Below are positions 8,951 to 46,481 of a DNA stretch of 64,000 bases, piece by piece (the first letter of the stretch is position 1; the number at the start of each line of letters is the position of its first letter). This stretch comes from Lotus japonicus (taxonomy: Eukaryota > Streptophyta > Magnoliopsida > Fabales > Fabaceae): positions 65,797,984 through 65,861,983 of the forward strand of contig NC_080046.1 of assembly GCF_012489685.1 (NCBI RefSeq), given 5' to 3'. Position numbers and translations under genes: made by a program. The notes beneath the pieces were generated by a model. It searched no databases. It worked only from the letters and a program-made list of their open reading frames with translations, and was not told the origin of the DNA.

Positions 8951-8954
8951 AGTT

Positions 8955-9170
8955 TAAGGCTAAATAGCACTTTTGGTCCCCCACGTTTCAAAAATGTGCA
9001 ATCTTAATCCCCCACGTTTAAAAATAGCATAATGGTACCTCAACGTTTAGCTCCGTTAGCAGTTTTGGTCCCTAAGCTAATTTGCCGTTAGAAACTTAAC
9101 GTTTTTGTTTGACATGGCATTTTTTTTCTGATGTGGCATTCAGACATAACATGTGAGGATCACGTGAGTC
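8955..9170. repeat. Dispersed-repeat fragment (TAAATAGCACTTTTGGTCC type)
   Basis: The text runs TAAATAGCACTTTTGGTCCC, then further stretches rich in CCCCACGTTT. A related end (TTAATAACACTTTTGGTC, reverse strand) bounds the foldback element at 55609-56004, so the two may be relatives. No coding content. Confidence 0.4.
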
Positions 9171-9200
9171 TTATCCTAACCTAATCCATTCCCAATTGCA

Positions 9201-9933
9201 ACTTGGTTCCAAATCGCGACGGTGACGACCAAATCGAGAGGAGCGAAGCCCGGCGGTCGTGAAGGAACTGCGATTGCGAGTGTGAGAAGACGGTTTCTGG
9301 GTAAGAAGGTCATCGGTGGTGAGAAGGTGGTCCGAAGGCAAAATCGAGAGGAAGGAAATGGCGACCGACAAAAAAGGTGTGTCGAAGAAGACCCCTCGAA
9401 GGCCAAAGAAGAAAACTCCGACAAAAGAGACGGTGGTCCCAGAGACGGTGGTCCCAGAGAAGATGGTCCCAGAGAAAACTCCGTTTTCAAAATTGGACTT
9501 TTGGCTCAATGGAGATTTGCCCGCAAACTATGTTTCCAGGTATATATTTTATCCTTTTCTCTATCTTGTGAGTCATGGTTGTTGAAGGATTTAAGTGCAT
9601 TGATGTATATTATTTAAGTAGGTGCCTTTCCTAGTCAAATTCTCTATCCTTTTCTCTGCTTTGTGCTTGCATGTGGTCCACGAGATTCCCTCTTCCACTA
9701 AAGTTTACAAAGTTTATTGTATTCTATTGTATTGTCTCTTCTGCAGGCCTACTGCTCCCCATAAGATAACCATGAGTGTGTATCATGGGGGTGAATTGAC
9801 ATTTGACCCAACTATGCCCTATCCAAGTGGGCTTTGTGAAGTCTGGCATCCGTATGATGTGGATCTCATTTCATCCGCACTTTTACTGTACTGCGGAACA
9901 TGCCTTTATCCTTTAAAAAATTGTACAAAATGA
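9201..9933 (+). other. Unidentified gene-like fragments inside the Helitron
   Basis: A stretch around 9316-9540 encodes a basic peptide with an imperfect 15-bp tandem repeat (ETVVPE units, 9428-9478) ending in FWLNGDLPANYVSR and a GT donor. After an intron-like gap a second stretch (about 9747-9880) encodes MSVYHGGELTFDP followed by EVWHPYDVDLIS, vaguely like the PB1-like N-terminal module of some plant MULE transposases. No complete frame exists. The origin is uncertain and the strand is inferred from the splice-like boundaries. Confidence 0.3.
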
Positions 9934-10653
9934 AGAACGTATTTTTTGGGTTTCTTAGAGTTTACACTCTACTAATCCAATTAGAGACACTTTGAATATA
10001 GTGTGGAACATGTCTAATCCCTTTTTTAAACTAAAATCAATCATCCAAATGTCCAATTAAAACCTAGAATATGCAGATTGGTAATTATTGATAAATTTGT
10101 TCATGGTGTTCTTTTGCCAAGATCTAGGAAGACTAGGATTAACAAACCATACATTTTACATGTCATTCTCCATGTTCGAGTGAAACATTTATATGATTAT
10201 ATTAATAATTGTAAGCGTTGTGTACCATTGCTTGTGTTTGATTGAATGAATCACATAAATTCCACCTGTTGCACCTTGGTCTCTATAAGTAGTGGTTTGA
10301 TGTGTTGTTTTTGTGAATTGTGGAGTTTGAAAAGTTATCACTGCTAAGATTAGTTCTTTTGTATTAATTTGTTGTCTAAGTTATATCAACAGCTTCCCCA
10401 AATTATTATGAAAGTTTTACACTCTATCAAGTACGCCTGAGATAAAATGACAAGGCATGAGCTTCACAAGCTCATGACTTTAAATTTTCCTTTCTATTCA
10501 AAGTTTTCCAGTTTTGTTTGTTCTATTCTGCCTCATGTATTGCTTTCTGTTTATCCCCACTGTGTGGTGAAACATTGCTTTTGTTTTATGATCATTGTGT
10601 GGTGGAGCAGCATGCTATGTGACTTTAAGTATTTTATGTGTCTTCTTGTGCAG

Positions 10654-11077
10654 GAAGCCAGGAATGCCTCTCTTGCAGTTGGGATGTGCCCACAAAGCCA
10701 ATGGGAGAAAGTTACCAAGGGTTCTAGGACTAGATCAATGTCTCCTTTTGACCACAAGTTCCTAGACATAAGGACTGCTGGTGCAACACTGGAAAATTTT
10801 AAGGTGTCCACTGATGAAGGTAAAAAGCTCATGGTTGTATTTAACACTAATGAGTTACAGTTTCTTGAAGTTCCATTAATTTCTCTAAAAACGGTGATGA
10901 CCAACACTAAAACCTTTTCCCTCCTTTGCAGAATTTTTTGCTTATCGCATTGTATTGTTAGTATTTGGTATTATTCTCATGACCACAACATCCTTTGTCC
11001 GCAAATCATTAGTATTTTATTATAGCAGTGCAATGGCAATTGGGATAACTCTTGTGGTACTGATTGTTCTATATCAA
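10654..11077 (+). pseudogene. PNET2-like: Captured PNET2 (NEMP/DUF2215 nuclear envelope protein) exons
   Basis: Two consecutive exons of a plant nuclear-envelope transmembrane protein of the NEMP family (Arabidopsis PNET2). Exon 10654-10819 encodes MSPFDHKFLDIRTAG with flanking NEMP sequence, and exon 10932-11077 encodes EFFAYRIVLLVFGIILMTTT and a second hydrophobic segment (AMAIGITLVVLIVLYQ). The acceptors and donors (CAG before 10654, GTAAAA after 10819, GCAG before 10932, GTAACT after 11077) are retained, so it was captured as genomic DNA, introns included. The rest of the gene is absent or unrecognisable, so this is a Helitron-captured fragment; a chimeric transcript is possible. Confidence 0.75.
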
Positions 11078-12072
11078 GTAACTTTTTTTTTTATTCTTCA
11101 AGTTTTGAAATTTGGAATGTTCAATGTTCAATTGAACCTTCTATCCCACATTGGCAAATCATTCTCTCTAAGACTCACGCTGGAAAAATCATGCACTTTT
11201 CACCCCCTCCCCCTTCCCTCTCCTCAATAAATAATTAATTTTAAAATCCTAAGGAAGGGGAAGAAGAATTTTTGGATTTTGTGCTAAGTGTAGAACCTTT
11301 GTTAGTTTAGAAAAATTCTTTGTGCCAAGAAAGAACTATGTGTTGCTCTTTAAGGTTGTATTGTGAGTGCATGTGAGACCTGGTACCCCAAACTTTCTTG
11401 CACAGTGCATGTGAGTGCATGTTTGTGATTGGTTAAAGGCTTTTGTTTCATTTTTTCTTTCAAGTTTGAGTCAATTTGCATTTAGTTTCAATTTTAGTTT
11501 TATCTCATTTTTACTACATGGCAGTGTTCATGGGAGCATTTTTTATTTTTTGGGAGAATTTAAGAGCCAATAGTAATCAAGAAGTTTATGTATAAGCTAT
11601 TCAAATGTTGTGTTTACATGATGTATTTTTTTGGTGTGATTTCCAATATAAGTTCCTTATGAATTGGAATTGAAGTCTTTGATTGTAAGTTTACTTATAT
11701 GGGTGACATATTTTGTTTCCTTTTACCTATCTTTGTCCAAACAATCAACTAGAAAGCATCTAAGAACCCTTAGTAATGTGAGTATATTGGACTATAGGTT
11801 CTTCTATAATTGGGGATTTCTATATCTCCTTATGCACAATGTTATATCGAATATTGAGGAGAAAATTGATCAGAAAGTGACTGAACTACAAAATAGATAA
11901 GTTACTGCACTTCAGTTAGAGGATAAAGTGAGATCTTAAAATGATTTGATGTCTGCCATAGATCAATGTGTGTAGTGTGTGATTCTGTGTTTTAGAGAAG
12001 TAAATATGTAATATGTATTATATTTTTATAAATGAGAACTGGCAACGTTTCTGAAACTTAATGGTGTATTGC

Positions 12073-12171
12073 AGAAATTGACGCTCTAATGCATGAACTT
12101 GATGAGGAAGAGATGCAAATGGATGAATTAGCAAAGAGGGCTATAGAGAAGTTGAAAGAATCCACTCTTTG
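12073..12171 (+). other. Possible captured last exon, unidentified
   Basis: After an AG at a plausible acceptor the frame reads EIDALMHELDEEEMQMDELA and then KRAIEKLKESTL before a TGA. The peptide is acidic and helical, like the C-terminal exon of a coiled-coil protein. I cannot assign it to a family, and whether it belongs to the same captured gene as the PNET2-like exons is unknown. Confidence 0.3.
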
Positions 12172-12940
12172 AGATGTTGATGCTGCTAAACCTGTTCAAA
12201 ATGACTCATGACAAACTGCAGCGGTTAAACGTGATGAAAATATTTATACATATATAGAATAGTTGGTTGGTTGTCTCATACAACTATTGGTAGATAGGGA
12301 TAATGAGTAATCGCTTTAGTGTGATGGTTTTAGATGATCATATGTGAGGGAATTTGATAAAGGGATATTTGAAGGAAGGTGATCATGAAAAGGCTACATC
12401 TTCTCATTTGACACTGAGCAGTAGAAAACAAAAGACTTTGACTTGATATTCATGCTATGAATAATATTGTTAAACGATATTTCACGTTAAAAAGTGAAGT
12501 TAGACCTGTCTTTTGCATTTCGATGCATGTAGGCTCATTTGCAAGCTCATGGAATAATATTTTGTTGACACTTATCCACATCCACCTTAGATATATAAGA
12601 AGAGAAAATCGAGAAATGTGTGGAAATGAGATAGGAAAGAAAGTGAGATATGAATAAATCATTACTCTTGGATATGTGTATAGATATTTTCTTTTAGTTT
12701 CAAATATCCCCCTCATAGTCTAATATATTATTACATTTCAGCCAACTTTTCATTTTTTACTGTAAAGATTGCGCTAAAGTGTAAGTCGATAGGGGTTAAA
12801 CACAATTAACATTTGAAACTCATATAGTTCATATGTATAAGAAAGATAAAACATTTAAACATAAACATAAGATAATAACGACATATAAGTGTTTGACTAA
12901 TTAAAATTGTATATCTTAAAAAATACTTCATTGTATTATT

Positions 12941-12941
<1 letters not shown>

Positions 12942-12998
<57 letters not shown>
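12942..12998. repeat. (AT)n microsatellite
   Basis: Uninterrupted AT dinucleotides for about 55 bases, about 80 bases from the Helitron 3' terminus. Confidence 0.9.
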
Positions 12999-13000
<2 letters not shown>

Positions 13001-13080
13001 AATTCTGAATAATTGTAGTTAGCAGTGGAGTTCGTGAAAAATTATTCGTGCATCGCACGGACAAACGGGTATAATCCTAG

Positions 13081-13796
13081 TTTAGAAGATTTAGATAACA
13101 TCAAAAGAAAAAGTTCATGTATTATTATTGTAATATATTTTAAGCTTTTAATTGATTGTGTCTATAGACACTTGTGCTCATGTAAGAATTACTTATTGTA
13201 TGCTCACAACAAATTTTCTTTGTCGGAGTACTAGCAATAAAAGGAAAAAAGATTAGGCAGCATATGTGATACAAATAAGTGCATATTTGTTTTTGCAAGG
13301 TAAATACGATTTTGCGTATCTCAACGCATTATTTGTCATATTGAATTTAACTTCGATCAGTTATAATTTGATTCACGCTAAATTTAATGGAAATCCAAAG
13401 ACACTCTAAAATTAACAAATCAGATGTTAGAAATAAATTTACTCTATTTCCTTTGATATCAAAGTTCATTGAAACAAATCTTATCCATCGTCGGAGCTCC
13501 TCTACCAGAGCTGACCCTAGTCCTCCACTGCGCCGCCCGCAACACTGATATTATATTCTTTTTATAGGTAAATGTTAGTTGTTAGTAATGTTAGAAAGTA
13601 ATCTCTCCTCAGTGTTCAAACCCTGCATCTTTCACCCTTCATCCCACCGTATTATTATGTTTCATAACTCTTACCACTTGAGTCATCGAGATCCTGATTG
13701 CGAAGGAAAAAGAGCGAAGTGAGTGAAAGATAAATGAAAATGAAAACCGGGGGTATTTATGTATTTTCCCAAAAAAATTGGGGCTTTTGTATAAGA
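13081..13796. other. Spacer of the duplicated unit, promoter side of the copy 1 nuclear-protein gene
   Basis: Single-copy spacer of the ancestral unit, lying between the Helitron and the MULE and repeated at about 38627-39332. In copy 2 it joins directly to the 5'UTR of the Lys/Arg/Ser-rich protein gene, so it holds that gene's promoter. No reading frame of interest. The left part has diverged by several percent from copy 2; the last 200 bases are nearly identical. Confidence 0.6.
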
Positions 13797-13805
13797 GAAA
13801 CAGAG
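13797..13805. repeat. 9-bp target site duplication of the MULE (left)
   Basis: GAAACAGAG here and again at 24072-24080. Copy 2 has it once, at 39339-39347, in the unoccupied site. Nine bases is the length typical of Mutator-like elements. Confidence 0.95.
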
Positions 13806-13847
13806 GAGCCCTGGATTTGGCACCCCAGGGCTTAGAAATGCCACCCC
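13806..13847. repeat. MULE left terminal inverted repeat
   Basis: Begins GAGCCCTGGATTTGGCACCC and pairs with the right end at 24030-24071. It contains two similar blocks, ATTTGGCACCCC and AAATGCCACCCC. Beyond base 42 the two ends diverge. Confidence 0.93.
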
Positions 13848-13888
13848 ACTTAAAAGTGGGGAAATACTATTATGCCCCTCCGTGTTTT

Positions 13889-14050
13889 ATTTCGGAATAT
13901 CCATTTCCGAAGTCTTTCTGATTTTGAGATTCCGATATGCTTCGGAGGGTAACGTTCCGAAGGCTGTTGTATTAATTCAAAACACGGGCTCGAAAGCTCT
14001 CTCATTTCCCATTTCATTCCGAATTTCTTCTTGAACTTCCATTTCCGAAG
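13889..14050. repeat. Subterminal TTCCGAA/TTCGGAA-rich block, left
   Basis: At least seven copies of TTCCGA or its complement TCGGAA within 160 bases just inside the left end. The same hexamer clusters at the right end (23865-24000), upstream of the transposase gene (23385-23475) and between the HROB-like and transposase genes (19870-20160). Clusters of short subterminal motifs are common transposase-binding regions, but that function is an inference here. Confidence 0.5.
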
Positions 14051-16304
14051 CCCTCCAAACCTTCACAGCCTTCATCAGAGCTCTCCCTTCATCGCTCTTC
14101 ATCATCTTCTTCGTCAACTACTGGAAGTAGAATTCCGCCCGCAATAGAGGTAAGGGCCTTCATATCTTCGTCATCTTGTTGTTGCTGTTAGGGTTACGGA
14201 TTCGAATTGTTGCTCTTGAAATTTTTGGGTGCGGTTTGGTATTTTGTGTATTAGGGTTTTAGTGATTTGTGGATTGTGCGGTATTGTTGAAATTGTTGGG
14301 TGCGATTTGTTGGGTGAAATTGTTGGGTGCAGCTTGAACAATTGTGCGGTTTTAGTATCTCATTCTTGAAGATGTCTGATTGAAGCTCTTGTTGATGTTG
14401 GTTTACTGTAAATTAACTTCTTCATGTTCATGCAGAGCCAAGGGAGCATGCTTTCTGCCTTGATTGTGCCTTGATTGTGCTAGAAGTGATTCACTGTGCT
14501 ACCTGTAAGTATTTCTTATCTTCTGATCCTGATCTTCATATAGTAAAACAATGGACACTAGTGGCTTTTGTATGTTTTACTTAAATATGTTGATTTTGGT
14601 GCTTAATATGTTGAATGAGATACTCAACCAAGTAAGGCTAATCCAATACTTGATACTCTTAACTAGGACAAACAGCCCTTACTCTACCCTGATAAATGAA
14701 CACCTCTAATCGTTGTGGCATGCAGATCATATTGGTCCCAACCAATTCCCATAGTGTTTCTGTACATAACTATGAAAACACACTTATGCTCTATCTTTGA
14801 TAATTTTTTAGTTTAGTTATTTTGGATTGGCTTTTTCATCAGTTAACTTTAGTTAAGTCATATTTAACATTGTGCCAACATGTTTATATTTTACATTTAT
14901 TTATATTGCCAGAATTAATTCACTTCTGAGGAGAGAAAAGAGAAGTTATCTAAACATGCTATGAGAGTACTAACTTTATGACTTGCTGCTAAAAGCATTG
15001 TATATGTTGGTGGAAATGGCAATCACACTTGTCACTACAGATGCTATTATCATAACCAGTGCTATAATTTTATCCCTTCTTGTTGATATACCATATGCAT
15101 CCCTGTCATTGTAAACAACAAAGAAAATTAGGAACCTGATATGGATGCTGATTTCAGGCAGATTTGATTAGTTAGGTTAATTTAGCATATTTCAATTTTT
15201 ATTTTTATATCTTTATTAGTTAGGAATTATTATATTTTTATTAGTAATGATTTGAATGTTTTTCTTTAACAGATAAGACATGATTGTTTCTTATCTTATT
15301 AGATATAGGATCTTTTTAATTAGATAAGATTCTAGTTTCCCTATTTGCTTGTACTCAACCCTTAAGTTGATAATCTTAGTTTCTACTTTTTAATTTGAAT
15401 AGAAACGCTGGTCTTGCTACTCATGCAGTTGTGTGCTTTTTGCTGAATGAGATGCTCAACCAGAACACTTTTGTTTCTTTTTCCCTTTGATAATCAATTT
15501 TGTTTAAAGAAAAGTTGATCCAAACATCCTCAACATACTTGATACATGTTTTGCCCTCTGTACTTTCAGTTTTCATTCTTAGAAAACTCTCTTCAAGTTG
15601 AGTAGCATTTACATATACTGGTTTATTCTTTTCAGTACATAAATATGCTAGACATGCTTATTGATCAAGTATGTTAGACATTCTTTTTATTTACATATAC
15701 TGGTTTACATATAGCATTTACATATACTGGTTTACATATACTGGTTTATTGATAATCTTAGTTTCTGCTTTTTAATTTGAATAGAAACACTGGCCTTGCT
15801 ACTCATGCAGCTGTGTGCTTTTTGCTGAATGAGATGTAACCAGAACACTTTTGTTTCTTTTCCCTTTGATAATCAATTTTGTTTAAAGAAAAGTTGATCT
15901 AAACATCCTCAACATACTTGATACATGTTTTGCCCTCTGTACTTTCAGTTTTCATTCTTAGAAAACTCTCTTCAAGTTGAGTAGCATTTACATATACTGG
16001 TTTATTCTTTTCAGTACATAAATAGGCTAGACATGCTTATTGATCAAGTATGTTAGACATTCTTTTTATTTACATATACTGGTTTATTGATCAGGAAACT
16101 GTTGAAAAGATTAGAGTTGGGATCAAAGAACAAACAGAAATCACTGTTCATTTTATCAGAGGTAAATAACCTGTCTTGGTTGATATATGTAGCCTCTTGA
16201 ATATTAAGTTTCTTCTAGCTTTCAGCTGATTGCATGAATATTCAGTTATAAAGCTCATCAATTGGTACTTTTACAATTATCTGATGAGTATTATTTTTTA
16301 ATAG
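14051..16304. other. 5' region of the MULE plant-mobile-domain gene
   Basis: 2.2 kb of AT-rich non-coding sequence between the subterminal block and the first ATG of the PMD gene, probably leader exons and introns (for example a GAG then GTAAGG donor near 14148). It holds a large tandem duplication listed separately. No reading frame of interest. Confidence 0.5.
15367..16092. repeat. Tandem direct duplication of about 345-380 bp inside the MULE
   Basis: Sequence starting TTGATAATCTTAGTTTCT at 15367 recurs at 15749 and stays closely similar to about 16092. The copies differ by a few substitutions and small indels (for example ATGAGATGCTCAACC against ATGAGATGTAACC). Between them are short reiterations of TTTACATATACTGG. 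Confidence 0.85.
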
Positions 16305-18501
16305 ATGGCTAAGAGGAAGAGCCAAGGGCGCAGGAAATCACATGTTGCTGGGAGCTCCCATGATGCCACGGAGGATGTTGAGGATCGCCACACAGCCCCG
16401 GATGATGTTGAGGATCGCCACAGACGGCTGCATGCTTCTTTTCGTAGAGTCAGAGGCAGATTTGGTGAGGACCAGGATGTTGGTGGGACATCAAATGAGG
16501 AGCGTCGAGACCCTTGTGAGATGATTCCTGAGCCTTCTCGTCAGACGACTCCCGAGCCTTCTCCGCCTTCTCCGCCTTCTCGTCAGACGACTCCCGAGCC
16601 TTCTCCGCCTTCTCGTCAGATGACTCCTCAGAGTTCGACAGAGAGTGAGCATGAGGTTGATGTGGAGCATGAGGTTGATGTGGAGCTTCAGGTTGATGTG
16701 GAGCCTGAGGTTGGTGTGGAGCTTGAGGGTGATGCTGGAGCACGACGGGATGAGGTGCCAGTCCAGACAGAGGCACCGTTTCCAGGGGGCCTGATGATCT
16801 GTCACTGTTGGTCCGTTACCCACATCACGTTGCGCCGTGTCTGTGGCATCATATTATAGGCACCGACCCGCGTTACCCCGATAGAGGTGTGTTGAAGTTT
16901 GCCAGCGCTGGGATGAAGCTGGCAAAGCTGACATGTGAGGGCGAGGGAGACGATATGAGCGCTGTTCGTCAGCGTGTGGAGGGGACCGGACTCTATCCGC
17001 TCTTCAGTTGCACCTATCTGGAGATAGACACACCCCTTCTATCTGCCCTCGTCGAGAGATGGCATGAGGATACCAGCAGCTTCCACATGCCATTCGGGGA
17101 GATGACCATCACCCTGGATGACGTGTCATCTATACTTCATTTGCCGATGGGTGATAGGTTTTATACTCCCGGACAGGCCAGCAGAGAACAGGCAGCGGAG
17201 ACCTGTGTTCTGCTCTTAGGAGGGGTAGCCACGGACTACATCATGGAGTTTAAGGCGGTGAAGACCATTGGCTTGCGATTCGGGTTCTTGCAGACTCTTT
17301 ACACTAGGGCTCTTGCTGGTTAGTTGTACTGTATACTTAATTTATTTGCAACTATTATATGTGAATTAAATGATTAATGGTTTCTTTGTTGTACTTTAGA
17401 GCATCGGCATGACCATGCAGCACGGATGTGGCTACTTCACCTCCTCGGCTCGACCTTGTTTGCGAACAAGAGTGGAGGACACTACACTTCTGTCCATTGG
17501 ATCGGCATGCTGCAGCACCTTGATCGGGTGTCAGAGTATGCGTGGGGCGCCATTGCACTAGCTACACTGTATGATGCACTTGGTCATGCCTCACGGAGGA
17601 AGACCAAGCAGATGAGCGGTTGTTCTTCCCTCCTGGTAGCTTGGGTGTTTGAGCACTTCCCACCCACCATTATTCAGCGGATTGAGGTCCCCGAGCACAC
17701 GGAGGACCAGCCCAGAGCGTGCAGGTGGATGGAGTCCCGGGCAGGGCATGCTGGACTGATGGAGAGGCGAGTTCTCTTCGATGAGATGACGGCAGAGGAC
17801 GTCATATGGACACCGTATGAGGAGCACAGGAGTCACAGAGAGCTGGACTTCCGAGCTTTATACTCAGGCTACATCCGGACTCCCATCCGGACGGCCGTGC
17901 GACCTCATCTTCCTGAGCGTGTGATGCGGCAGTTTGGGTACGTGCAGCCTATCCCGCGACACCCATCTGTTGTGATGGGCATGAGTTCTGCTGCGGAGGT
18001 CGTTGATGCAGCATACCAGGATTATGAGCCACACTTGATTCCAGGGGGGTCCCTAGTATAGTGGATGGAGCGGCAGTAGATGATTACCTGGACTGGTACA
18101 CCGGTGTATCTCACCGGTTCATCATCCCGGATGAGAGTAGGGCCGATCTCAGTGCTGTGGTAAGTGTGAACTTAATTTTCTTTATGCATTTTTGGTTTTG
18201 TGTATGCGGTTTACTAACATGTATATTGATTTATTTTCAGGCTTCTTTGCGTCGGGCCGTTGATTTGCTAGAGCAGGGACTTGAGGTCGACGACGGTCCC
18301 CCTAGAGATACACGCTCCCGCACTTTATTAGAGAAGTGCCTCACTGTCATCAGAGACTTGAGCAGGACCCAGGGCGTCACTTTCGTTGGTGTACGAGGAG
18401 GCAGATGTCGAGGCAGAGGAGGAGGCGGAGATAGAGGAGGTGGCAGAGGCGGAGGCAGAGGTCGTAGGGGTAGGGTGGGTCGTAGGGGCAGAGGGCAGTG
18501 A
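16305..18501 (+). pseudogene. Plant mobile domain (PMD, MAIN/MAIL-like) protein carried by the MULE, two frameshifts
   Basis: Member of the transposon-borne plant mobile domain family (aminotransferase-like, PF10536), often annotated as phosphatase-7 long-form homologue. Exons 16305-17318, 17400-18159 and 18241-18501. Order: basic N terminus; Pro/Ser/Thr and Glu/Val-Asp repeats (about residues 75-145); PMD core with LYPLFSCTYLEIDTPLLSAL, ILHLPMGDRFYTP, LLHLLGSTLFANKSGG and EYAWGAIALATLYDALGHAS; then a Gly-Arg-rich tail typical of RNA binding. The frame is broken twice, each by one missing base in a G run: 16785-16789 (five G where six restore the frame) and 18044-18049 (six where seven do). 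Either it is a young pseudogene or these are homopolymer sequencing errors. PMD proteins are linked to silencing and genome stability in plants; its role in the element is unknown. Confidence 0.82.
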
Positions 18502-18806
18502 CATTATTATTATGTGTACTTTTATCGCACTATTAGTTTATACACGCTTTATTATCGGTCTGTACTTTTATCGCATTATTAGTTTGGATTTCACATTATC
18601 ACGCTTTACTTGATTTGATTACATTTTTATCTCTTTTTAAATCAGGTAAAATAACAAACAAAATCCAATGGGAAGTGAAATAACGCACATAATCCAATTG
18701 AAGCAAAATAACGTACATAATTCAAGGGACGCAACATAGCCTACATAATCCAGGTCAAGGATTTTTTAAAGTTGCAAATAATTCAAAATTAGCCAAATAA
18801 CATTAA
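18502..18806. other. Convergent 3' ends of PMD gene and HROB-like gene
   Basis: About 300 bases of AT-rich sequence between two convergent stop codons; presumed 3'UTRs. An imperfect tandem repeat of AAATAACGCACATAATCCAA type lies at 18645-18755 (three or four units of about 35 bases). Confidence 0.5.
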
Positions 18807-19652
18807 TCAATCTTCTGTAATGTCGGTGAATGTTTCAGATGGAGGTCCACAGTCACTGGAGAATACCTGTGAAAATTCACATAAACGAAAATTGAGATGT
18901 GTAAAAATCCACAGTCACTTTTATTTTAATTATATATGTGTAAAAAAGATTTCCATACCTTAACTATGTTGGGCAATGTTATGTTCAGGTAACAATTAGA
19001 TTTTCTAGGAGAAAACACAGCTACCTCAAAGCAAAAAAGGAAGAAATAATGTTCAACTTGTCTAAAGAAGTAGAAACAATAGTCAAGTCGGTTAGAAATA
19101 ATAAACCTTCTGGATAAGCATAACAGATCCAACATTTATGTCCTTCGCGAATTCGCTTTCAGTGAAAACCTTGTGATGGACACTAGCACCGACAGTGCCC
19201 GTAGGATCCTGAAACTCAAACCCATATGGCATTGACAGAGGACATTTAAATACCATGACATTGATGAAAAAGAACGCGGAAGATGGAAATACCTTCAGGG
19301 TAACTGACACATCGCCGAATCCGTTTGGCGTGCATGATTTGATAACTGCGACGATGAGATCGACCCTTTCTAGATGGTGAGTGATTGAACCCAGAGGAGT
19401 TGCAGATCCGCCTAATTGCAGGGCTGAAAGCCAAGCATTGGAGTGAAAATCGGGATAAGTGTCGTGACCGTCTTCGACGACGCGCCTAACAAATTGTTGG
19501 GTTGGAATGAGGTGTCCGTCGGTGGTGGAGCTGCGTTGAATCATGGCGGCCTGGACAACACCAGCAGGGCCGGGAATGAGAGGACGAGAACTTGCAGAAG
19601 AGTTGCCTCGGAGTTTGCAAGGGTGGATGAAGGTGGGCAAATCTTGTTCCAT
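18807..19652 (-). CDS. HROB-like OB-fold protein carried by the MULE (195 aa)
   Basis: Resembles the OB-fold domain of homologous recombination OB-fold protein (HROB/MCM8IP), which in animals loads the MCM8-MCM9 helicase. Four exons with consistent phase: 19652-19293, 19208-19107, 19024-18959 and 18866-18807, open from ATG to TGA. Features in order: LIPGPAGVVQAAMIQRSS (about 25-42), FHSNAWLSALQLGG (about 68-81), then the OB strands ERVDLIVAVIKSC, FGDVSVTLKDPTGTVGASVH, GSVMLIQKVAVFSPRKSNCY and LNITLPNIVKVF, ending in an acidic tail. It has only the OB-fold core, not the long disordered N terminus of full HROB. It lies inside the element, on the same strand as the transposase and 690 bases downstream of it. 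The start is the first ATG that leaves a typical N terminus; an upstream in-frame extension to 19721 is less likely. Confidence 0.8.
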
Positions 19653-20341
19653 TTTGATTTTGAAGGTTTCGTTGAAAGAATGAAAGGAGAGGATGAATAC
19701 AAGAAAGCTTAAATCAAGCAAATTTATAGATGAATGAGTAATGGGGTTGGTTGTTGTTGGTGGTTGATAGTAATTAGGTTGGCTGTGGTTGGATGAGAGT
19801 AATGAGGTTGGTTGTGGTTGGTTGTGGATAGTGATGGAGAGACTTAAAATTAAAATGAGAAAAAAAATTAACGTTCGGATCCCCAGATTCCGAAGTTGTT
19901 CGGATCCTATAAATCCGAACTGTCTCGGAAACCTAAATGTCGAAGATTGTTTAAACTTGGGGGTGCCAAATTTAAGTATATGACACGGAAATGGAAAGGA
20001 GTCGTCCGAAAGATTTCGGACTCCGTAGTTCCGAACTATTGTTTTCGGACTAGAGCCTTCCGAATAGTGAAAACAAATGGGGTGGCATTTTACCTGACTC
20101 TAATAATACGGACATTAGCCTTCCGAAGTACTTCGGAAACCAAAGTTCCGAAATTTGCTTAACCAGTTAAAATGACAGTACCAGAAACAATGCAGGCAGA
20201 ATCACAAGTTCTCATAACCAGCTACATTGCAGGGCAGAAACAGATAAAATGCACATGAGAAATAGTTTAATACTACATCATAATACTTTGAACTTCTAAT
20301 TAGTTGTACATATGTCATTGCTACAAACATCAATCCTAGTC
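19653..20341. other. Spacer between HROB-like and transposase genes, with internal TIR-like pieces
   Basis: Contains the HROB-like promoter and transposase 3' end, a dense TTCCGAA/TTCGGA cluster (19870-20160), and two short segments resembling the element's ends: GGGGGTGCCAAAT near 19960 and GGGGTGGCATTTT near 20079. These match the two blocks of the terminal repeat in right-end orientation, which suggests a remnant of a related element end. Confidence 0.5.
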
Positions 20342-23300
20342 TCAATCTTCTCCAAGGTCTATAAAGACATTCTCTTGAGGACCACCCGTAGGATCAATCC
20401 AAGCATTCAATTCTGCCGTAAATGTAGCCAAACGCGCCGCATACGGGAAGATCCATTGGTCGGTGGGTTCTTTGGCCAAAAACGGCCATTGGGGAGCTAT
20501 TGTTGGCATAGGATGTCCCGGCTTAAGCTTGAGCTACATTTGAGAGTATAGCAATAAAGATAGATAAGAACAAAGTGGCTGAGTACAAAGTATACTAATT
20601 TAACGTGACAAGCGAGTGTAAGGTACTTCATAAAAGTTATACCTGAACAAAGTGGTTGGTGACGTGACCAACTGCTATAACGGGATGTACTTCCGGTGGG
20701 GCGCCTCCTCTCAATGGCAGATAAGTGTAACAACCTTTTAGTGAAATGGAGATGAAGACAACTTGCAACCTCGTAGCAATGAGGTACCCCATCTCCAGTA
20801 GAGACATCCACTTGTCTTCCGTTGCAATTGTACCAATCGGAAGGATGAGACGATTTTGTAGAGACTGAACCCTCTCATAACCAAATATGTTGCTATAGTA
20901 AGCGGTATTCTCTGAGAGTTCTACAAGCAACTCTTCCCTAATCAAAGGCCAACCGTCTTGACCTATGTCGGGTCTGAACAATGCAGCAACTGATCTATAA
21001 CCACAATTACCATCTGCAATAACATCTATGACTTTTTCTATATATTGATGGAAGAAAGATGGCAAATCATCCAAGTATATGCTGGTGGAGGACTGCTTGC
21101 TCTTCTTAGACTTCTTGCTTCGAGGACAAGAGACTTTGTTAGGTGTTGGCTTGAGGCTATTGTTAACATGTTCCCAATAACAAGGATCACGTTGTAAGGA
21201 TGGTTTTTGTTGACTAGGTGGTTTACTCTCCATAGCCTTGGACGAGCGCTTGGGCTTTATCTTCACTTGAGGAGGACACAGTGAACTACTAGAAGGACAA
21301 TAGAGCTCTTTTACCTTCCTCCTTAGCATACTTTGGCCCGCAACATCCAAAGTGTTGAAATAAGCGGTCAAGCCATCAATCTCTGACTTGAGGTCTCCTT
21401 GGTTTGAGGCTTGACTCCCAATGGGTACATGGTCCCAACCAAGTATCTTCCAGAAAGTATGGATTGCCTCATACGGAATTCTATCATAACTATGAAGTGC
21501 ACACGCACAAGGAAGCCCATGGGTAACTTGGAATGCGCATCCACAACCATCACGCATCACTCTGTTCTGTTCATCTTCCATGAGTTGCATGGCCTTTCTG
21601 GACACAAATCCCCTGATATTTGTATACATGGGCGACTTGAAACGATGTTCTACAAGGTTGATACTGCGCTCAAATGATGCCTTGATTTCATTGTGTCGTA
21701 CAGTGGTCAACCTATCCACTGCATCCCACGAGGCGCACAAGTCACCTCTGCCGTCTTTCAGCATCCTCTTCAAGGTTGAGTGTGCACTTTCAGCCCTGCA
21801 TACAAAAGATCATACTCTATCAATTTCTGGTAATAAAGCAAGACTATGAAATGAAAGATCACAACCAATAAAGTGTGCATTGTACCTGTTACTCGTTGTA
21901 GTTCCAAAATGCAACACAGAATTGGTCCACGCACTCACAAATTTCTCCTTGTGCTTTAACCATGTAGTAGAAATGTAGGATATGAAATCTGGGAAGTCCT
22001 TACACATGACACACATTTCCTTCCATTCCTCATCAAATTGTTCCACTGTTTCAGCATAAATCAGGCATTTCCAGTTCTCCATCACTGAAAGGGCAAAATC
22101 ATCCGTGCCAATCAACACTTTGCATTTTGCCTCCACATTCTTGTTTATGTGGAACCGGCATAATAAATTGGTACAATTGGGAAGACATTGCTTAACAGCA
22201 CTCAGTAAAGCCAAATCTCTGTCAGTCACAATCACTTGAGGTAATCTGGCATCATCGGCAATAAGAGACTTCATGCACTCCAAGGCCCAAACATAGTCAA
22301 TTGTGTGCTCCCTAACTATGTAGCAAAATGCTATGGAGAAAGTCAACCCCGTAGAAGTGAGACCAACCATTTCAAGCAAGGGGATCTGATATCTGTTTGT
22401 CTTGTACGTGCAATCCATGATGACCACATGAGGGAATGTGTTGAAGAGTCTGACCGCATCAGGATGAGCCCAAAAGAGATCCCTAATCTCACTTGAATCA
22501 GCTTGTTGCCTTTCAAAGTGAACATACTTGGCTTCTACCAACTTCTTCATCAAATGTTGCATTTCTGTCAATGGTCCCCTCTCCTCTTTTTTAAACCTTT
22601 TGTTGCAACTGTAAACTTGAGTGATTGTAGTCAAGTTACTTGGATTGTTTTCCTTCAATGCCGCTAGTATTTGTCTCGGTGGAGTCCAAGTACTAGTCAT
22701 GGTGCCCACAAGCCCCTTCTCTTCCTCTGTTAGTCGACCAACGTAGGGGTGGCCAACTAGTGATTTAGCTGGTTCATGGTTGTGTTTACCATCCATCACT
22801 TTCAGCCACCACATTCTATCACCCTTCGTAGGTCGTCCTTTGAGATTAAACTTACAATCAGTCTTTTGTGATGCGGTCTTTTTGTACTTGAATGTATTCG
22901 GGTCCTTGTATGGCCTGTAAATACCATGCTTCGCACACTTAATAGTAACAAATACCTTTCCTCCACTTATAGCATAGTCAGACCTTGCAATCACCAGCAC
23001 ATAACCATTCGCCTTTCCAACATTCTTAGCCCATTGTTCAAGCTCATCACGAGTATCAAATATCTGTTCAATGATAACATATTGCTTTAGAAATAAAACA
23101 TCCTACCAACCATCACTAATTATTCAATGATCATCACATCATTTTCCAAATACATAGTAGTATGTTCCAACAAAAATTATTCAATGAATACCTGGTCAGT
23201 TGTAAATAAATGTGTGGCGTCCACGCTTATACGAGGGGGCACCCACGGAATGATATTGCTAGGAGGCTCAACATTCCCAGAACCGCATGCGGCATCGCAT

Positions 23301-23347
23301 GCGGCATCAACCAGTAAATCTTCTTCATATAGGTACGGTTCAGTCAT
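20342..23347 (-). CDS. MULE transposase fused to an OTU cysteine protease domain (892 aa)
   Basis: DDE transposase of the Mutator/FAR1 superfamily. Exons 23347-23192, 23063-21886, 21795-20643 and 20533-20342, in phase and without stops. Domains: FAR1/WRKY-GCM1 zinc finger (about 53-155; KCAKHG, TDCKFNLKG, DGKHNHE); MULE core with D269 (VVIMDCTYK), D333 (VIVTDRDLALL) and E447 (AESAH); SWIM-like finger (CGCAFQVTHGLPCAC, Cys530, 532, 541, 543); basic linker; OTU domain (about 700-829) with catalytic-type DGNCGYRS (Cys709) and His826 in NHFVQ; C-terminal LKPGHPMP region. The fourth exon was added because the last ORF codon before its stop lies on a GTATAA donor and the downstream frame continues the family C terminus. 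OTU proteases cut ubiquitin chains; a role in protecting or processing the transposase is speculation. Confidence 0.9.
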
Positions 23348-23400
23348 TCAGCCTGCATGTAACAAACTGCAACTGGTTAACTACTTCGGACATTGGGATT

Positions 23401-23475
23401 CCGAACTCGTTCCGATACAGACAATCCGAACTCGTTCGGATACAGACAATCCGAACTCGTTCGGATACAGACAAT
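23401..23475. promoter_or_regulatory. Three tandem 25-bp units with CCGAAC-TC-GTTCGG palindromes upstream of the transposase
   Basis: Three head-to-tail copies of a 25-bp unit at 23401-23425, 23426-23450 and 23451-23475. Each contains CCGAACTCGTTCGG, a 6-bp inverted repeat around TC (unit 1 has one mismatch in its right arm). They lie 54-128 bases upstream of the transposase ATG, where a promoter or leader is expected. The half-site is the same TTCGGA motif that clusters inside both ends of the element, so the transposase zinc finger may bind both. Binding is inferred. Confidence 0.6.
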
Positions 23476-24029
23476 CCGTATCAAGCTCGACAGCATCAGA
23501 ATACAAACAAACAATGGTGGTGCAAAACGAACTTCCAACAAACAACAATGAAATGTAACTACAATGATAAGTAAAGCAGGATATGAAGGGGGAGAGAAAT
23601 GAAACTTACCAGAAGGAACTTGGTAGCAAGGTGGAACTTGGAAGGAGATGGTGGTTGAGGGTGGAGCAAGTGGAACTTGGAAGGAGATGGTGGTGAGGGG
23701 GAGGAAAACAAACGTGGAGGAAGAAGAGGAAGAGTGGTGGTGGTGGAGTTTTTTGAATCTGATTGTAATGGGGGGGTGGTGATGGGGTTGGTGGTGGATG
23801 AGTAATGGTGATGGAGTTGGTGGTGGAGGAGTAATGGTGCTCAAAAGGTGGCAGTGTGCGACAGGTTTTCGGATTCAACGAATCCGAAGTACTTCGGATT
23901 GTACGTTTCCGAATTATGTCTGTCATTTAAGTGTCAGATTCAACAAGGTATTATTCGAAACTTTGGATTCCGAAGTGTTACGAATACCCGGTGTCCGAAA
24001 GGGTAGTTCTGACATTTTTTAAAAAATCT
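23476..24029. other. Upstream region of the transposase and right subterminal block
   Basis: Strand-asymmetric, G-rich GGTGGTGGAG-type simple sequence at 23630-23850, then a TTCGGA/TCCGAA cluster at 23865-24000 mirroring the left subterminal block. Open frames here are simple-sequence artefacts. Confidence 0.5.
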
Positions 24030-24071
24030 GGGGTGCCATTTCTAAGCCCTGGGGTGCCAAATCCAGAGCTC
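24030..24071. repeat. MULE right terminal inverted repeat
   Basis: Ends GGGTGCCAAATCCAGAGCTC, the inverse of the left end. It is followed directly by the 9-bp target duplication. Confidence 0.93.
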
Positions 24072-24080
24072 GAAACAGAG
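24072..24080. repeat. 9-bp target site duplication of the MULE (right)
   Basis: GAAACAGAG, identical to 13797-13805 and present once in the copy 2 empty site. Confidence 0.95.
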
Positions 24081-24697
24081 AGAGAGGGGGAAACAAAACG
24101 AAGATTGAAATTGAAGCCTGAAGAGATCGTTGGACGGTGCCCGACGCAGACAGAGACAAGGTGCGTCGATTATTTTCCCCAATTTTGTATTTTGAGTTCT
24201 TCTCTAATTCTCTGGGTTTGCAAAGATTCCGACTTTACTGCTGTATTTGATCTCTGATTCTTCCTCCGTGAAAAAATTGGGTTTTGATTTTTACTCAATT
24301 TTGCATCTTTCTTGCCTGAAATTTCCACCCTTTATAGCTTGGAAGTTGGAACCATTTTGTGGGATGATGAAATTCTGGGGTTTACTGTATTGGGCTAGAA
24401 CATGGTTAGATTTTTATTTTTTGGTGTGAATTTTAGGGTCCAATGTTGATGATACTTTGAGTGCTACTTTTGTAATTAACTAGAAGTTTGATTAATAATT
24501 TACACTAAGAGAACTTTGGAAACTAGAAAAATGTCAGTGATATATGAAATAATGGTTGTTTGTGAATTATCCCCTCGGAACACGAAACATCACACACACC
24601 ACACTGAAGTTGTTTCTTAAATTTTTATTGAAGTCATTCATTTGTTTAAAATATTATTTTTAGAATTCTTTGTTTTGTTTTTGGGTGACATGATCAG

Positions 24698-26493
24698 ATG
24701 GATCTGGAGAGTGAAAACAGACTAGCTGCTATGCTTATGAGGGAAGCAGCTGAGTTGCGGCGGCAGGCTGAAAAAGAAGGTGTTCTGGCTTATCTTAGTA
24801 AGCCTAATGTCCGGAATCGGCCAAATTCACGCTTCCTCACTGCTACTGTACTTGGGGTACAACAATGTTAGTCACTAATTTTACTGGTTATTATTGCTTT
24901 ACATTGCCTTGTGTTTTATGGCTGTGCTTTTGAGAAAGTTTTAGGATTTTGTGGGAACTAGGAAATAATATTTTATATGCCTGTCATTTAATTGATCTGT
25001 TTGGTGAATGTGGGTATCTTTTGAGTTTAAAACATTCATATTCATTGTTTTTTTATTAGAGTGGGGGGTGGGTTTAGAAGAAGACAGGGGGGGAAACATT
25101 TACCATTACATATTATACAGACATATTGGAGAGCTTTATTCGACTTATGGGCTTTGTTCCATCTTTTTTCCTATTCTTTGCTTACTTACAGAGATCATCC
25201 AGAATGTTTGTCTCTTGTTTTTCCTTGGCTATATTGTCTAATTTATTCTGACTTTCTCTTTCTTATTATATGCAAAGACAATGGGTTGGGTATGGTTTGA
25301 GTTCTTTAGAAGTGGGCTTTCTTCTTTCTAGTGTCTTCACATGCACTGTGTGCGTCTAGTATTCATGGGTGATATATGTGACTGCTTTCTCTGTCCAAGA
25401 TGTGTATCCTCTACTCGTACTCATGGGTTACGTACTTGGTACACTTGCCGTACTTTGTTTATCAGGGTTTATAGGATTTAGGTTGGGATGCACTTCAGAA
25501 AGAAATGTATGGAATTATAACCATGGACGTGGTCAAGATCACCATTTTTCTTGCAAGATCACACTATCTTACTATCTATTGATCCTGATCACAGTCATTG
25601 GTTTCACTTTGGTGCTGGTAGTTTATCTATATTAATGAAATTGAATTTCTTTTGGTGCTTTCCCCCAGCTAATCGAGTTGTGGAAGTAAATGAGATGTGG
25701 CGAGTACGGCAAAAAGAAAAAGAGCTGGATGAACGGGTTAGAGGTACATCATCAGATAAAAGCAGTGGAGACAGAAGCCATAGGGATGATAAAACATCAA
25801 GAAGTTCCATTGGTAATAGCACTAGAACATCTGCTTCATGCTCAAGTAAAAGACAATTTGAGATGGAGGTTAAAGACACATCAAAAGATAAAAATTCAAG
25901 TGACAGAAGCCACAGGGATAGTAAATTGTTAGGAAGAACCGGAAGACATGCTGTAATCGATGAAAGCACTAGTGCTTCTGCTTCATGCTTAAATAAAAGA
26001 GGACATGAGCATCCTCCAGAAGGTTTAAAGGATGAAGAGCTTGAGGAGTTTCTCCACTCAAGGTTTTACTTTTATGCATTCTGGTGTTTTTATATGCATG
26101 CATGCCTTAATATAATTCTCTCTCTCTCTCTATATTGAATTTAGAACTAAGGAAGCTCCATATTGGTGCAGGACCAAGCGAGGCAGAGGCGCTGTTGGTC
26201 CAAGAATGGATGAGACTGGGCCTTACCTTCCTCCTCATACAGATGGGGAGCCTAGTACTAGTCCTGATGCAAGGGAACGCCGTCGGGTTATTTACGGTCC
26301 GGAGATGCCTTCATCATTGAAGTTATATGAATCCTCTGAGGAGGAGACTGATGAAGACAGGCGGAGAAAGAGTAAAAAGTCTCGCTCTAGCTGCTCAGAC
26401 AAGGAGCATTCTGAGAAGCGCAAGTCCAAGAAGAAATCTAAGCATAAGAAAAAGAAAAGGGACGAGAAAAGAAGTAAACATCATCATCGGTAA
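24698..26493 (+). CDS. Lys/Arg/Ser-rich probable nuclear protein, copy 1 (303 aa)
   Basis: Conserved plant protein without a function I can name. Coding exons are 24698-24866, 25669-26062 and 26145-26493; a non-coding first exon probably ends at the GT near 24160. The N terminus is a charged helix (NRLAAMLMREAAELRRQAEK), then YLSKPNVRNRPNSRFLTATV and VNEMWRVRQKEKELDERVRG, a Ser/Asp/Lys/Arg-rich middle, a conserved block EAPYWCRTKRGRGAVGPRMD, and a C-terminal run of Lys, Arg and His with nuclear-localisation character. This resembles splicing- or chromatin-associated NKAP-like proteins only in composition. The frame is intact, but a 10.3-kb MULE sits in its 5'UTR, cutting it from its ancestral promoter, so expression is doubtful. 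Copy 2 (39965-41962) differs by an extra exon. Confidence 0.72.
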
Positions 26494-27521
26494 TGCTGTT
26501 GTGTAATTCTATAATCTCTCACAGATGAATGTTATAATTTGCAATGGATATGGAACTCATGTTTGTACTTTGTAACATCTGTAACCTCAAAATGCAATTC
26601 CTCTTGGAGATATGAATTGTTTTGGCCATATGATGCAAGCAATTATTTTGCATTGTTTTATGGATTTCATTCCTATGGTGCAGAGTGCAGCCAATTCTTT
26701 TGGTCATATCACACTTCAGCCACATCTTTTTGCATCAAGATTATTTGCCTCTTTTTCGTGATAGTAATACAACAAATATACACCACCAGCCAAAGAATAT
26801 GAGCTTGGCAAAAAGACAAACGTAACATTCTTGAAATCGAAAATATTGGCATCACAATGTGCTAAACTAAAAAACAAGATGTTTGGACCCTCTCAAGCAG
26901 AATCTTCTCTCCATGCTTCTCCGGAAGCAATTCTATGTTTTTAATTTCCTATCAAAATACATTTATTAATCATGAAATAAACTAAGTCATTAAAGCCAAA
27001 TAGAGGGTTGAGATTTTGCATGAGAGCCAGACTCGAGAGGATCCTTGATGAAAGACAAGTGAGAAGCTTCTTAAGAAAAACGTATGTTTCACATATTGAT
27101 CTGAATCGGAAGATTACTTTAGGACTTATTTTTTGTTCTGTCCTAATTTCAAGAATACTTAATATTATATTGAATTAGAGAACATAACAATTATTTCTTT
27201 CAAAATAAAATGAACCACATACCCATTACAGCATGTTTGGATAACATTAAAAAGTCTGTTTAATTACATTTGAAACAGAAATCCCACTTTCTCAAATAAA
27301 AAAAGTGAAAGAAATTTCATCCTTTTTATGTTCACCAGAATACACACTTAATTATGTAACTATGCCATGGATCCTCCTACACCAAAATTCCCATCAAGAC
27401 TATTAGTATAATATTATTCTTTTGAGAGCACTATCACAGTATAAAGAGGGTCCGGTTCCTCTGCACTTATTTATTTATTTTATGCCTTTCCATCCTAGAT
27501 GTGTATTGAATCGGTGTTGAA
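26494..27521. other. Intergenic region between convergent genes, copy 1
   Basis: About 1 kb between the stop of the nuclear-protein gene and the stop of squalene epoxidase copy 1, so it contains both 3'UTRs. AT-rich, with nothing coding on either strand. Nearly identical to 41963-42990. Confidence 0.6.
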
Positions 27522-28989
27522 TCATGCAAATTTGGCAGGAGGTGCTCTGTAATATGCAGGCACAGTTACTGGGAAGAACATTTGTCTGATTCCTTCAGCC
27601 TTAATAATAGGAAATATAATACCAGATGCACCCTGAAATGTTAATAAAATTTTTGATTCAGAATCATAAATTCAATTCTACCATTAATCACTAATATACA
27701 GAACTTGTTCCACCATAGATTAGCATTGGTATCTGAGAAAAAAAGAGATATACTAACCGAAATCAATCTAGCTCCAATCCACATGCGTTTTGGAGAAGGA
27801 AATGGTACCAATAAACGACCAACACCATAAATAGCCACGGCAAAGAAGTGGAGAACTAAGCTTAATGGCTTTGGATTTAGACCAGAGAGAAGAGCTATTG
27901 GTCCATCTGAGAAAACACCTCCAAGTGTCAAATAATCAAAACATGCCTGCCTCATTTCCTTACTAGCTGGATCAGGGGAAGCACAAAACACCTTGTATAA
28001 TGCCCCAGCTAATGTGTTTATTGTAGATGCCACTGGCTGCAAACAAAACCAAGTTGTTTCTCATTAAGTTACTAATCAAACATGACAAAGGGTATTTAGC
28101 AAGTTAAGAATACAAGAGAGAGCTTAAGGAGGCAGGTAACACTTTATAAATTGTATATTAAGAGTCTGTTTGGATACGAGCTTATTAAGGTCTATTTACT
28201 GGAAAAAGCACTAAATATGCTCCACTTGATAAGTGCTATTTGGTTTGCATCCGAACGAGTCTACTTACCTTGCGAAGGGTGTAGAATGATTCCAGATATT
28301 TGCAAAGAGAAGAAGCACAATGCAGATCCTGCAAAGGCCTAAGAAGATCCCTTAACAAAACAATGTCAGACAAAGCAACAGTCATTCCTCCTCCAGTTAA
28401 CGGGTGGCGCATGTTGAAGGCGTCTCCCATCAGAAGGGCACCGGGTGTGGGCTGAGGAGATGCAGGCATGCTTCTGTTTGGCATGCTTCTTATGCTTCCT
28501 TTATCAACCGCTGCTACAAATGCAGATTGCAGCTCTTGCGGAACCTGAAACACAGTTCAATTCCCTTCCATTAGTTGCAGAAACGTTTGCAGCCGCAACA
28601 TAAGGAGTTATGGAGCCCCCGCATCAGCATCGCGGCCACTCCAACCTGCATTTGTCCGTAATTTCACAATGCACCAACAACCGCGACCCTAACCGCAAGA
28701 ATGATTATTGTAAGATGTAAGAATGAATGATTATTGTACCTGAGGAGCTACTACTGTTTTCAAATAATGAGCCATGTCACCATTACCAATGGATGGTAAT
28801 TTTTGGCCAGGCACATCAACCAAACACCGAATCTCAGTGCTGCTAATGGGGTAAAACAAGATGGGAGAAGGATCAGCCAAGACAACATGGCCATGGTTTG
28901 CATGTGGAAGGTTGCAGTTTTCCAGAACTAGACCAACAAAATGAGATGGTACATCAACCTGTACAAATAAGTGTACTCATCATGTGTCA

Positions 28990-29570
28990 AGCAACAATGA
29001 ACTATAATTGAAAAAAGATAAAACCATGTAGGTGCAATAACATAATATGTTTGGATCCACTTTTATTCTTCTCAGAATTGGTACCCTCTCCACAGAAGCT
29101 GCTCTTAGTATGTGTTTGGTTCCACGTTTGAGAGTATTAGAATCACTTCTAATTGACTAGAATCACTTCTAGGTGGTTCTATAGATGTTTGGCAATCAAC
29201 TTACATCATGTTTGGATTCACGTTTCAAATCTTCCAAAATCACTTCTACTAAAATGCTACTAGTAGCTTCTCTCGGAATAAATTCTCCTTCCAACATGAC
29301 AATCTACCGTGTATCCAAACACACTTAAGAGAATTGATTTTGGGAGTGCATAGAAGCTAGAAATCAATAGGGGGAGTAGCTTATGTGGTGTACATATGAG
29401 ATTTCATAACTGGATTTCACAAAATTATCCTATCGAAATCACTTTTCCTATTTTAAACGAATCCAAACAAAAATCATTTCACTTTCAACTCACTTTTTAC
29501 CATAATCAGAATTACCAAAATCAATTTTATCCAAAATTTATTCTGAGAACACTGATCCAAACACATGTGA
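28990..29570. repeat. MITE-like repeats within squalene epoxidase intron 4, copy 1
   Basis: The intron between exons 4 and 5 (28959-29671) contains blocks such as TATGTTTGGATCCAC, GTGTTTGGTTCCACG, ATGTTTGGATTCACG and the complementary ATCCAAACACA and GATCCAAACACATG. This is the inverted-end vocabulary of small TTTGGAT-type plant MITEs. The same cluster is in copy 2 (44459-45039), so it predates the duplication. A 137-codon open frame across it on the plus strand is not a gene. Confidence 0.5.
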
Positions 29571-30208: not shown

Positions 30209-30568
<360 letters not shown>

Positions 30569-33441: not shown

Positions 33442-33446
33442 GAAGC

Positions 33447-42990: not shown

Positions 42991-46481
<3,491 letters not shown>

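Follow-up and report, generated by a model that had tools for sequence, protein, structure and literature searches.

Whether a host recombination gene that sits inside a plant DNA transposon serves the transposon or is merely multiplied by it is the question raised by a locus of Lotus japonicus. The window, i.e., the whole stretch of DNA analysed, comprises 64,000 nucleotides of contig NC_080046.1 (assembly GCF_012489685.1, positions 65,797,984 to 65,861,983, forward strand). It contains a Mutator-like element (MULE) at window positions 13806-24071 with three genes, which encode a transposase with an OTU-type domain, a protein resembling the recombination factor HROB and a plant mobile domain (PMD) protein. 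The element apparently combines a regular MULE skeleton, two old accessories (OTU and PMD) and one unusual, apparently adapted HROB-like gene. The coding features are as follows.

18807-19652, minus strand: HROB-like gene, 195 aa, exons 19652-19293, 19208-19107, 19024-18959 and 18866-18807
18807-18833, minus strand: last eight HROB-like codons (TFTDITED) and stop
20342-23347, minus strand: transposase-OTU gene, 892 aa, exons 23347-23192, 23063-21886, 21795-20643 and 20533-20342
20643-21062, minus strand: part of exon 3 encoding most of the OTU-type domain (about residues 690-829), coordinates from exon lengths
20342-20368, minus strand: last eight transposase codons (VFIDLGED) and stop
16305-18501, plus strand: PMD gene, exons about 16305-17318, 17400-18159 and 18241-18501 (splice sites by eye), with a Gly/Arg-rich tail

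The HROB-like product is identical across 195 aa to the annotated L. japonicus protein LOC130725797 and matches the Pfam family PF15072 with 103.6 bits (cut-off 30.8), which bears out an earlier, sequence-only reading of the gene as an intact four-exon OB-fold gene. Structure modelling yielded an OB fold; a PDB sequence search gave no match at E values up to 1. The protein shares with host HROB (C17orf53, MCM8IP) the HROB profile, the OB fold and an IPGPAG-type stretch before the fold, but differs in its length of 195 aa, the lack of the acidic N-terminal and WTDEQL-type motifs and its transposase-like end. A protein search found 230 relatives, the best 120 of which are listed, including 14 Lotus clusters with 65 member sequences in all. 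The Lotus proteins form three subfamilies: I, that of the window; II, about 73-78% identical; and III, 64-65% identical. The full-length proteins are 194-196 aa long, and there are also two longer isoforms and a single shorter one.

Where the start is intact, plant host HROBs possess a EPWEALDVDDSD-like acidic stretch, and a WTDEQL-type motif lies near the end of many full-length sequences. A pattern search found neither motif in any of the 14 Lotus HROB-like rows; because the acidic motif is absent, the protein is named HROB-like. Among the 106 other listed HROB rows, many of them partial or divergent, the acidic motif was found in 13, the WTDEQL-type motif in 17 and both in 2. The IPGPAG-type stretch was recognised by pattern in 13 of the 14 Lotus rows. 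In human HROB, RPA1 docks via two acidic N-terminal motifs, and HROB without them is poorly recruited to damage in human cells (PMC7290032; this and the other sources given by PMC number are cited from their available portions). The stretch before the human OB fold is the binding site for MCM8, and the partner of the fold itself is MCM9, not DNA (PMC11055865). Mapped to the human protein by position, the HROB-like protein of the element would keep both MCM contacts and be without the RPA dock.

The other distinctive part is the C-terminal peptide. The transposase of the element ends in VFIDLGED and its relatives end in DYIDITKD, HYVDLNED, DYVDINED, ECIDLADD and similar peptides, while the HROB-like ends are TFTDITED (I), SFTNITED (II) and DFIDITEE or DFIDIAED (III). 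A rule accepted 35 comparable transposase C-termini from the best 120 of 430 relatives, and 25 of them have the pattern [VI][DNS][LI] at the peptide place or within a residue of it. The transposase-like peptide is present in 13 of the 14 Lotus HROB-like rows, the remaining row ending short of the peptide place. Scored against a profile of transposase tails, the HROB-like tails would be equalled by a random 8-mer with a probability of 2e-6 to 8e-5 (the scores of the three subfamilies are not independent, because the subfamilies are related); none of the C-termini of the 106 other HROB-domain proteins scored as high, whereas 0 to 7 of the 25565 8-mers within these proteins did. In the models of both the HROB-like protein and the Lotus transposase relative P0127, confidence is low at the tail, as it is for disordered segments. 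At the DNA level, likeness at the two stop codons is not beyond chance, and the idea that exon 4 of HROB recently received a copy of the transposase 3′ end is not supported, the similarity being matched by 49 of 500 shuffles. A SUMO-interacting or EAR/TOPLESS reading of the peptide is presumably poorly fitted in either case by FTNITED of subfamily II. The features of the HROB-like protein suggest adaptation to the element.

A mechanism can be proposed on this basis. Retaining the OB fold (the MCM9 contact in human HROB) and the preceding stretch (the MCM8 contact), lacking an RPA1-docking-type motif and ending in a transposase-like peptide, the HROB-like protein would bring the MCM8-9 helicase to transposase-bound breaks rather than to RPA-coated host breaks; this delivery would promote DNA synthesis and the repair of gaps as the element transposes. 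In full, a host recombination adaptor would have been taken over by the element: it would have lost host docking and gained a transposase-like peptide, and would direct MCM8-9 to transposition breaks, leading to refilled donor gaps and a higher copy number, with the OTU domain trimming repair ubiquitin signals. The probability of this complete scheme is put at roughly 17%; binding of MCM8-9, a common docking partner and any effect on transposition are what we infer. To our knowledge, the mechanism of MULE gap repair and copy gain is not settled. The same motif data (MCM contacts kept, RPA dock absent) would also suit a protein that diverts MCM8-9 from host recombination, so that donor breaks pass to other repair or the element is shielded from recombination-based loss, and the poor recruitment of human HROB without its RPA1 motifs (PMC7290032) would agree with such competition. 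It leaves the transposase-like peptide unexplained, however, and is improbable.

The phylogeny bears on how the gene was acquired. A 44-row HROB tree unites nine Lotus rows with one unnamed row in a single clade (100/99) nested in legumes (99/99), and places subfamilies I and II together with III outside (95/87). The transposase tree repeats the (I,II),III order (support 84/72; 86/89 in a second analysis), and a topology test rejected the I+III grouping (p-AU 0.0066). Extra residues occur at the first intron position in P0002 (I), P0009 (II) and P0029 and at the second in P0029 and P0071; they are apparently retained introns at shared positions, and therefore HROB-like would have been captured as genomic DNA. 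Our tentative reconstruction, with a likelihood a little under one half, is a single capture of a legume HROB gene that preceded the divergence of the Lotus subfamilies.

Other HROB-domain groups were seen outside Lotus. Tanacetum coccineum has numerous HROB-domain proteins among the matches listed, and six of them (P0041, P0046, P0048, P0064, P0072 and P0088) are source-named 'transposase, MuDR, MULE transposase domain protein'; Asteraceae possibly hold an independent HROB-MULE association. Vigna has a second, long-branched HROB-domain group (P0055, P0076, P0090, P0097 and P0112), in which P0055, P0090 and P0112, whose starts were recognised by pattern, keep the acidic N-terminal motif.

The transposase is encoded by four exons on the minus strand with no internal stops, and its motifs contain D269, D333 and E447, which we take to be the DDE residues, as well as Cys709 and His826, which we take to be the OTU catalytic residues. 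The intact 892-aa frame claimed for it from the letters is thus upheld. Pfam assigns a MULE domain (PF10551, 79 bits, cut-off 27.6), along with ZSWIM1-3 RNaseH-like and AFT matches. A zinc-finger-like CGC...LPCAC motif is present, and the Pfam scan gave no SWIM match; the motif reads LPCAC (CxC) in most aligned legume relatives and LPCAH (CxH) in Melia, Cannabis and some others. The protein search found 430 relatives. The best 120 listed are headed by a Lotus cluster of 63 member sequences at 96% identity; Lotus contributes four more clusters at 54-61% and one at 39% identity, and many others come from soybean, other legumes and other eudicots.

Pfam OTU models gave no match at E values up to 10 with the whole transposase or its C-terminal part, so the domain is called OTU-type, a distant relative. 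A profile from 12 OTU regions, though, matches OTUD5 (E 0.0016) and a viral OTU (E 0.0045) among solved structures. The Lotus relative P0127, which is 61% identical over 70% of the query, was modelled with most OTU-region blocks above a predicted local distance difference test score (pLDDT) of 90; the best folds for this model in PDB are OTU proteases (E 1.5e-4), and the ISCth4 transposase was also matched. The cysteine is kept in 35 of 39 alignment rows and the histidine in 30 (six gaps, three with another residue). Judged by the profile match, the P0127 model and the motifs, this part of the transposase does have an OTU fold, and the domain with Cys709 and His826 that the sequence-only reading had named holds up despite the missing Pfam match. 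By its presence in other legumes and eudicots, the domain is old in the transposase clade and not a fresh capture. No Ulp1 domain was found in the Pfam scan of the element proteins.

The third gene is in a different state. The middle part of the PMD protein matches PF10536 with 178 bits and the Gly/Arg tail is present, both in line with the initial description of the gene, which had left unmentioned that the frame is broken by two one-base frameshifts, in the G runs 16785-16789 and 18044-18049. The frameshifts are either real or residual sequencing errors; relatives read intact through the first place (P0242 and P0243) and the second (P0241), and programmed frameshifting is unlikely. A search yielded 26 relatives, of which 12, all from Lotus, lie in one clade with the window PMD. 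The tail is common to several subgroups of this clade; the branches outside it are long and their placement is unsure. The domain was first described in a rice MULE, transposase fusions occur in grasses and Amborella, and Arabidopsis PMD proteins act in silencing (PMC5418596). In angiosperm MULE groups, PMD is a frequent, often antisense, companion (PMC6446971). The region 15367-16086, before the PMD start, contains direct repeats of 238 nt (97%) and 88 nt (95%).

All three genes are multiplied in Lotus. Transposase P0129 is LOC130736031 and HROB P0010, of a divergent subfamily, is LOC130736032, both on a 95,628,465-base contig; with neighbouring numbers assumed to denote neighbouring genes, such a pair has a 0.5% chance if numbers are uniform (13 HROB and 4 transposase numbers visible). 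We infer that all three genes are present in most copies. Constraint was assessed by comparing changes between subfamilies in host- or outgroup-conserved columns with those in other columns, a protein-level stand-in for the ratio of nonsynonymous to synonymous substitution rates. Conserved HROB columns have fewer changes (p 0.0061, three representatives). For the transposase (window versus P0127), the p values are 0.00014 for the DDE part, 4e-7 for the OTU part, 0.056 for the post-DDE part, 0.13 for the tail and 1 for the linker; for PMD, they are 8.7e-6 for the domain and 0.07 for the region after it. The proposal that the three genes form a kit of the element keeps its force in that they are multiplied and constrained and the HROB-like protein is apparently adapted, and loses some in that PMD is broken here and OTU and PMD are older MULE features.

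Retention of HROB-like by selection, as a function of the element, may be the case, at somewhat less than even odds. Several observations weigh against it or against the mechanism built on it. The HROB constraint weakens with six representatives (p 0.023) and disappears when the comparison is confined to subfamily III (p 0.55), and the protein database is biased towards intact reading frames. The C-terminal peptide was spotted by eye, the 14 tails of the profile were hand-picked, 10 of the 35 comparable transposase C-termini lack the peptide, and the tail scores of I and II are reached by 4 and 7 of the 25565 internal 8-mers. Plant and human HROB segments were matched by position only. For the transposase, a II+III grouping is still compatible with the topology test (p-AU 0.109), PMD subgroups have no assignable counterparts among the transposase or HROB-like subfamilies, and the three genes were seen together between the ends in this copy alone, linkage in other copies amounting to one neighbouring transposase/HROB number pair. 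The sighting of the full set in one copy, the missing constraint within subfamily III and the decayed PMD of the same copy are also what would be left by a passenger, i.e., a host gene picked up by transduplication, as in Pack-MULEs, and multiplied without serving the element; host gene capture by MULEs is known (reviewed in PMC13317346). Such a passenger would hardly be expected to maintain frames of 194-196 aa across three subfamilies at 64-78% identity, to concentrate its changes away from host-conserved positions or to end in the transposase-like peptide wherever a Lotus row reaches that place, and it is rather unlikely, though a serious contender.

The ends and the insertion site of the element are as follows.

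13797-13805, no strand: left copy of the 9-bp target duplication, GAAACAGAG
13806-13848, plus strand: left terminal inverted repeat, 43 nt, by arm comparison
24029-24071, minus strand: right terminal inverted repeat, 43 nt, by arm comparison
24072-24080, no strand: right copy of the 9-bp target duplication, GAAACAGAG
39339-39347, no strand: unoccupied paralogous site with a single GAAACAGAG and both flanks contiguous, by window self-comparison

The terminal arms of 43 nt are 95% complementary and GAAACAGAG is a perfect 9-bp duplication on either side, as the first inspection of the letters had indicated. The central 25 nt of the repeat occur twice in the window, at the two element ends, against 0 expected (three mismatches or fewer). 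Target duplications of MULEs are 8-11 bp long, usually 9 bp. With its 9-bp duplication, terminal inverted repeats and MULE transposase domain, the element is a MULE.

Self-comparison of the window revealed a tandem segmental duplication that contains the unoccupied paralogue of the insertion site. Its matching pairs are listed below.

24072-30980 with 39339-46449: right part, about 99.3-99.95% identical
33441-33995 with 46443-46998: right part, about 99.3-99.95% identical
2717-13805 with 34003-39347: older left part, 92.7-96.5% identical

The element is a recent insertion, because the unoccupied site lies in the same window. At 39339-39347, a single GAAACAGAG connects matches to the left flank (13081-13805, 94%) and the right flank (24072-26250, 99.95%), and this clean single target argues against excision from the second copy. 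The identity level of the duplication shifts about 255 bases left of the element: the final 255 bases before the insertion have no difference to the paralogue, while differences are frequent before 13551. The right flank differs at 1 of 2179 bases and the following block at 6 of 4939 (the blocks overlap by about 209 bases). Since an identical tract crosses the insertion point, the insertion is most likely later than the duplication or a conversion event. If substitutions accumulate at about 6.5e-9 per site each year, the 7 differences over about 7100 bases correspond to an insertion age of roughly 80,000 years at most, a figure good only to the order of magnitude. A search with 10 queries (E 1e-3) found no additional fragments of the three genes elsewhere in the window. 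The locus is best read as a young insertion that belongs to a L. japonicus MULE family of the autonomous type and has three genes in this copy.

The non-coding parts of the element hold four arrays of TTCGGA/TCCGAA sites.

13891-14049, no strand: array A, six sites, two perfect dyads; subterminal, PMD side
19874-20152, no strand: array B, 12 sites, five perfect dyads; internal, between the HROB-like start and the transposase end
23385-23480, no strand: array C, six sites, two perfect dyads; directly upstream of the transposase start
23868-23999, no strand: array D, six sites, two perfect dyads; subterminal, transposase side

The element has 30 TTCGGA or TCCGAA sites, and the remaining 54 kb of the window has 9. 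The dyad TTCGGA-N9-TCCGAA (one mismatch or fewer) occurs 15 times, always within the element, with 0.03 expected, and 11 of these are perfect. None of the 30 sites falls in a gene body, which says little alone, because most non-genic DNA here lies upstream of a gene. The binder of the dyads may be the transposase or an anti-silencing factor, by analogy with VANC, which targets motif arrays in VANDAL elements (PMC5735166). The latter idea, that PMD, HROB-like or the transposase acts on the arrays and keeps the element expressed as VANC does in VANDAL, would accord with the confinement of the dyads to the element, the array-based targeting mode of VANC (PMC5735166) and the role of PMD proteins in Arabidopsis silencing (PMC5418596). 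The arrays may, however, be mere transposase sites, protein binding to the dyads is hypothetical, and the PMD-linked DOWN motif, in its MORC1 promoter instance (PMC9899485), is not enriched (11 near-matches in the window versus 8.1 expected); an anti-silencing role is quite improbable.

Array B also contains two TIR-like motifs (TIR, terminal inverted repeat), near 19961 and 20080. An array and such motifs between HROB-like and the transposase could be the inner-end remnant of two joined MULEs, one bringing the transposase and the other PMD and HROB-like. Such a composite, marginally less probable still, conflicts with the outer ends and target duplication, which fit a single element, and with the neighbouring gene numbers in the divergent subfamily, which suggest earlier transposase/HROB-like linkage.

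Seven neighbouring open reading frames were scanned. One, of 163 aa at 54778-55269, matches the reverse-transcriptase-like family RVT_3 (51.7 bits), and another matches a bHLH ACT-like model below its cut-off.

No description of the transposase-OTU, HROB-like and PMD combination was found in the open-licence literature, where matching papers were judged by their listed titles and the openings of their abstracts. Angiosperm PMD MULEs (groups 42 and 45-50) share with the Lotus element the MULE transposase, the 9-bp duplication and a PMD gene on the opposite strand, but the available portion of their description names neither an OTU domain nor an HROB-like gene (PMC6446971). Kaonashi and its relatives, MULEs with an Ulp1 protease, likewise join a MULE to a cysteine protease for ubiquitin-like proteins (PMC13317346), whereas the protease-like domain in Lotus is OTU-type and lies within the transposase itself. 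Ginger1 has a C-terminal OTU domain on its transposase and a proposed link to DNA repair; unlike the Lotus element, it is an animal element with an unrelated Gypsy integrase-like transposase, and an HROB or PMD gene is not mentioned in the available text (PMC2836005). VANDAL/Hiun (VANA, VANB and VANC) is also a multi-gene MULE with motif arrays in non-coding DNA (PMC5735166), but has other accessory proteins, and anti-silencing in the Lotus element is hypothetical. Pack-MULEs, gene fragments without a transposase, are not matched, as the transposase frame is intact here. The new part is the HROB-like gene; OTU in this clade and PMD in MULEs are older features.

Many transposases of the clade, both from legumes and from some other eudicots, carry the C-terminal peptide, which would offer a way to find a host partner. 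If the takeover of a host recombination adaptor is true, an element with its own such adaptor would make MULE gap repair directly testable.

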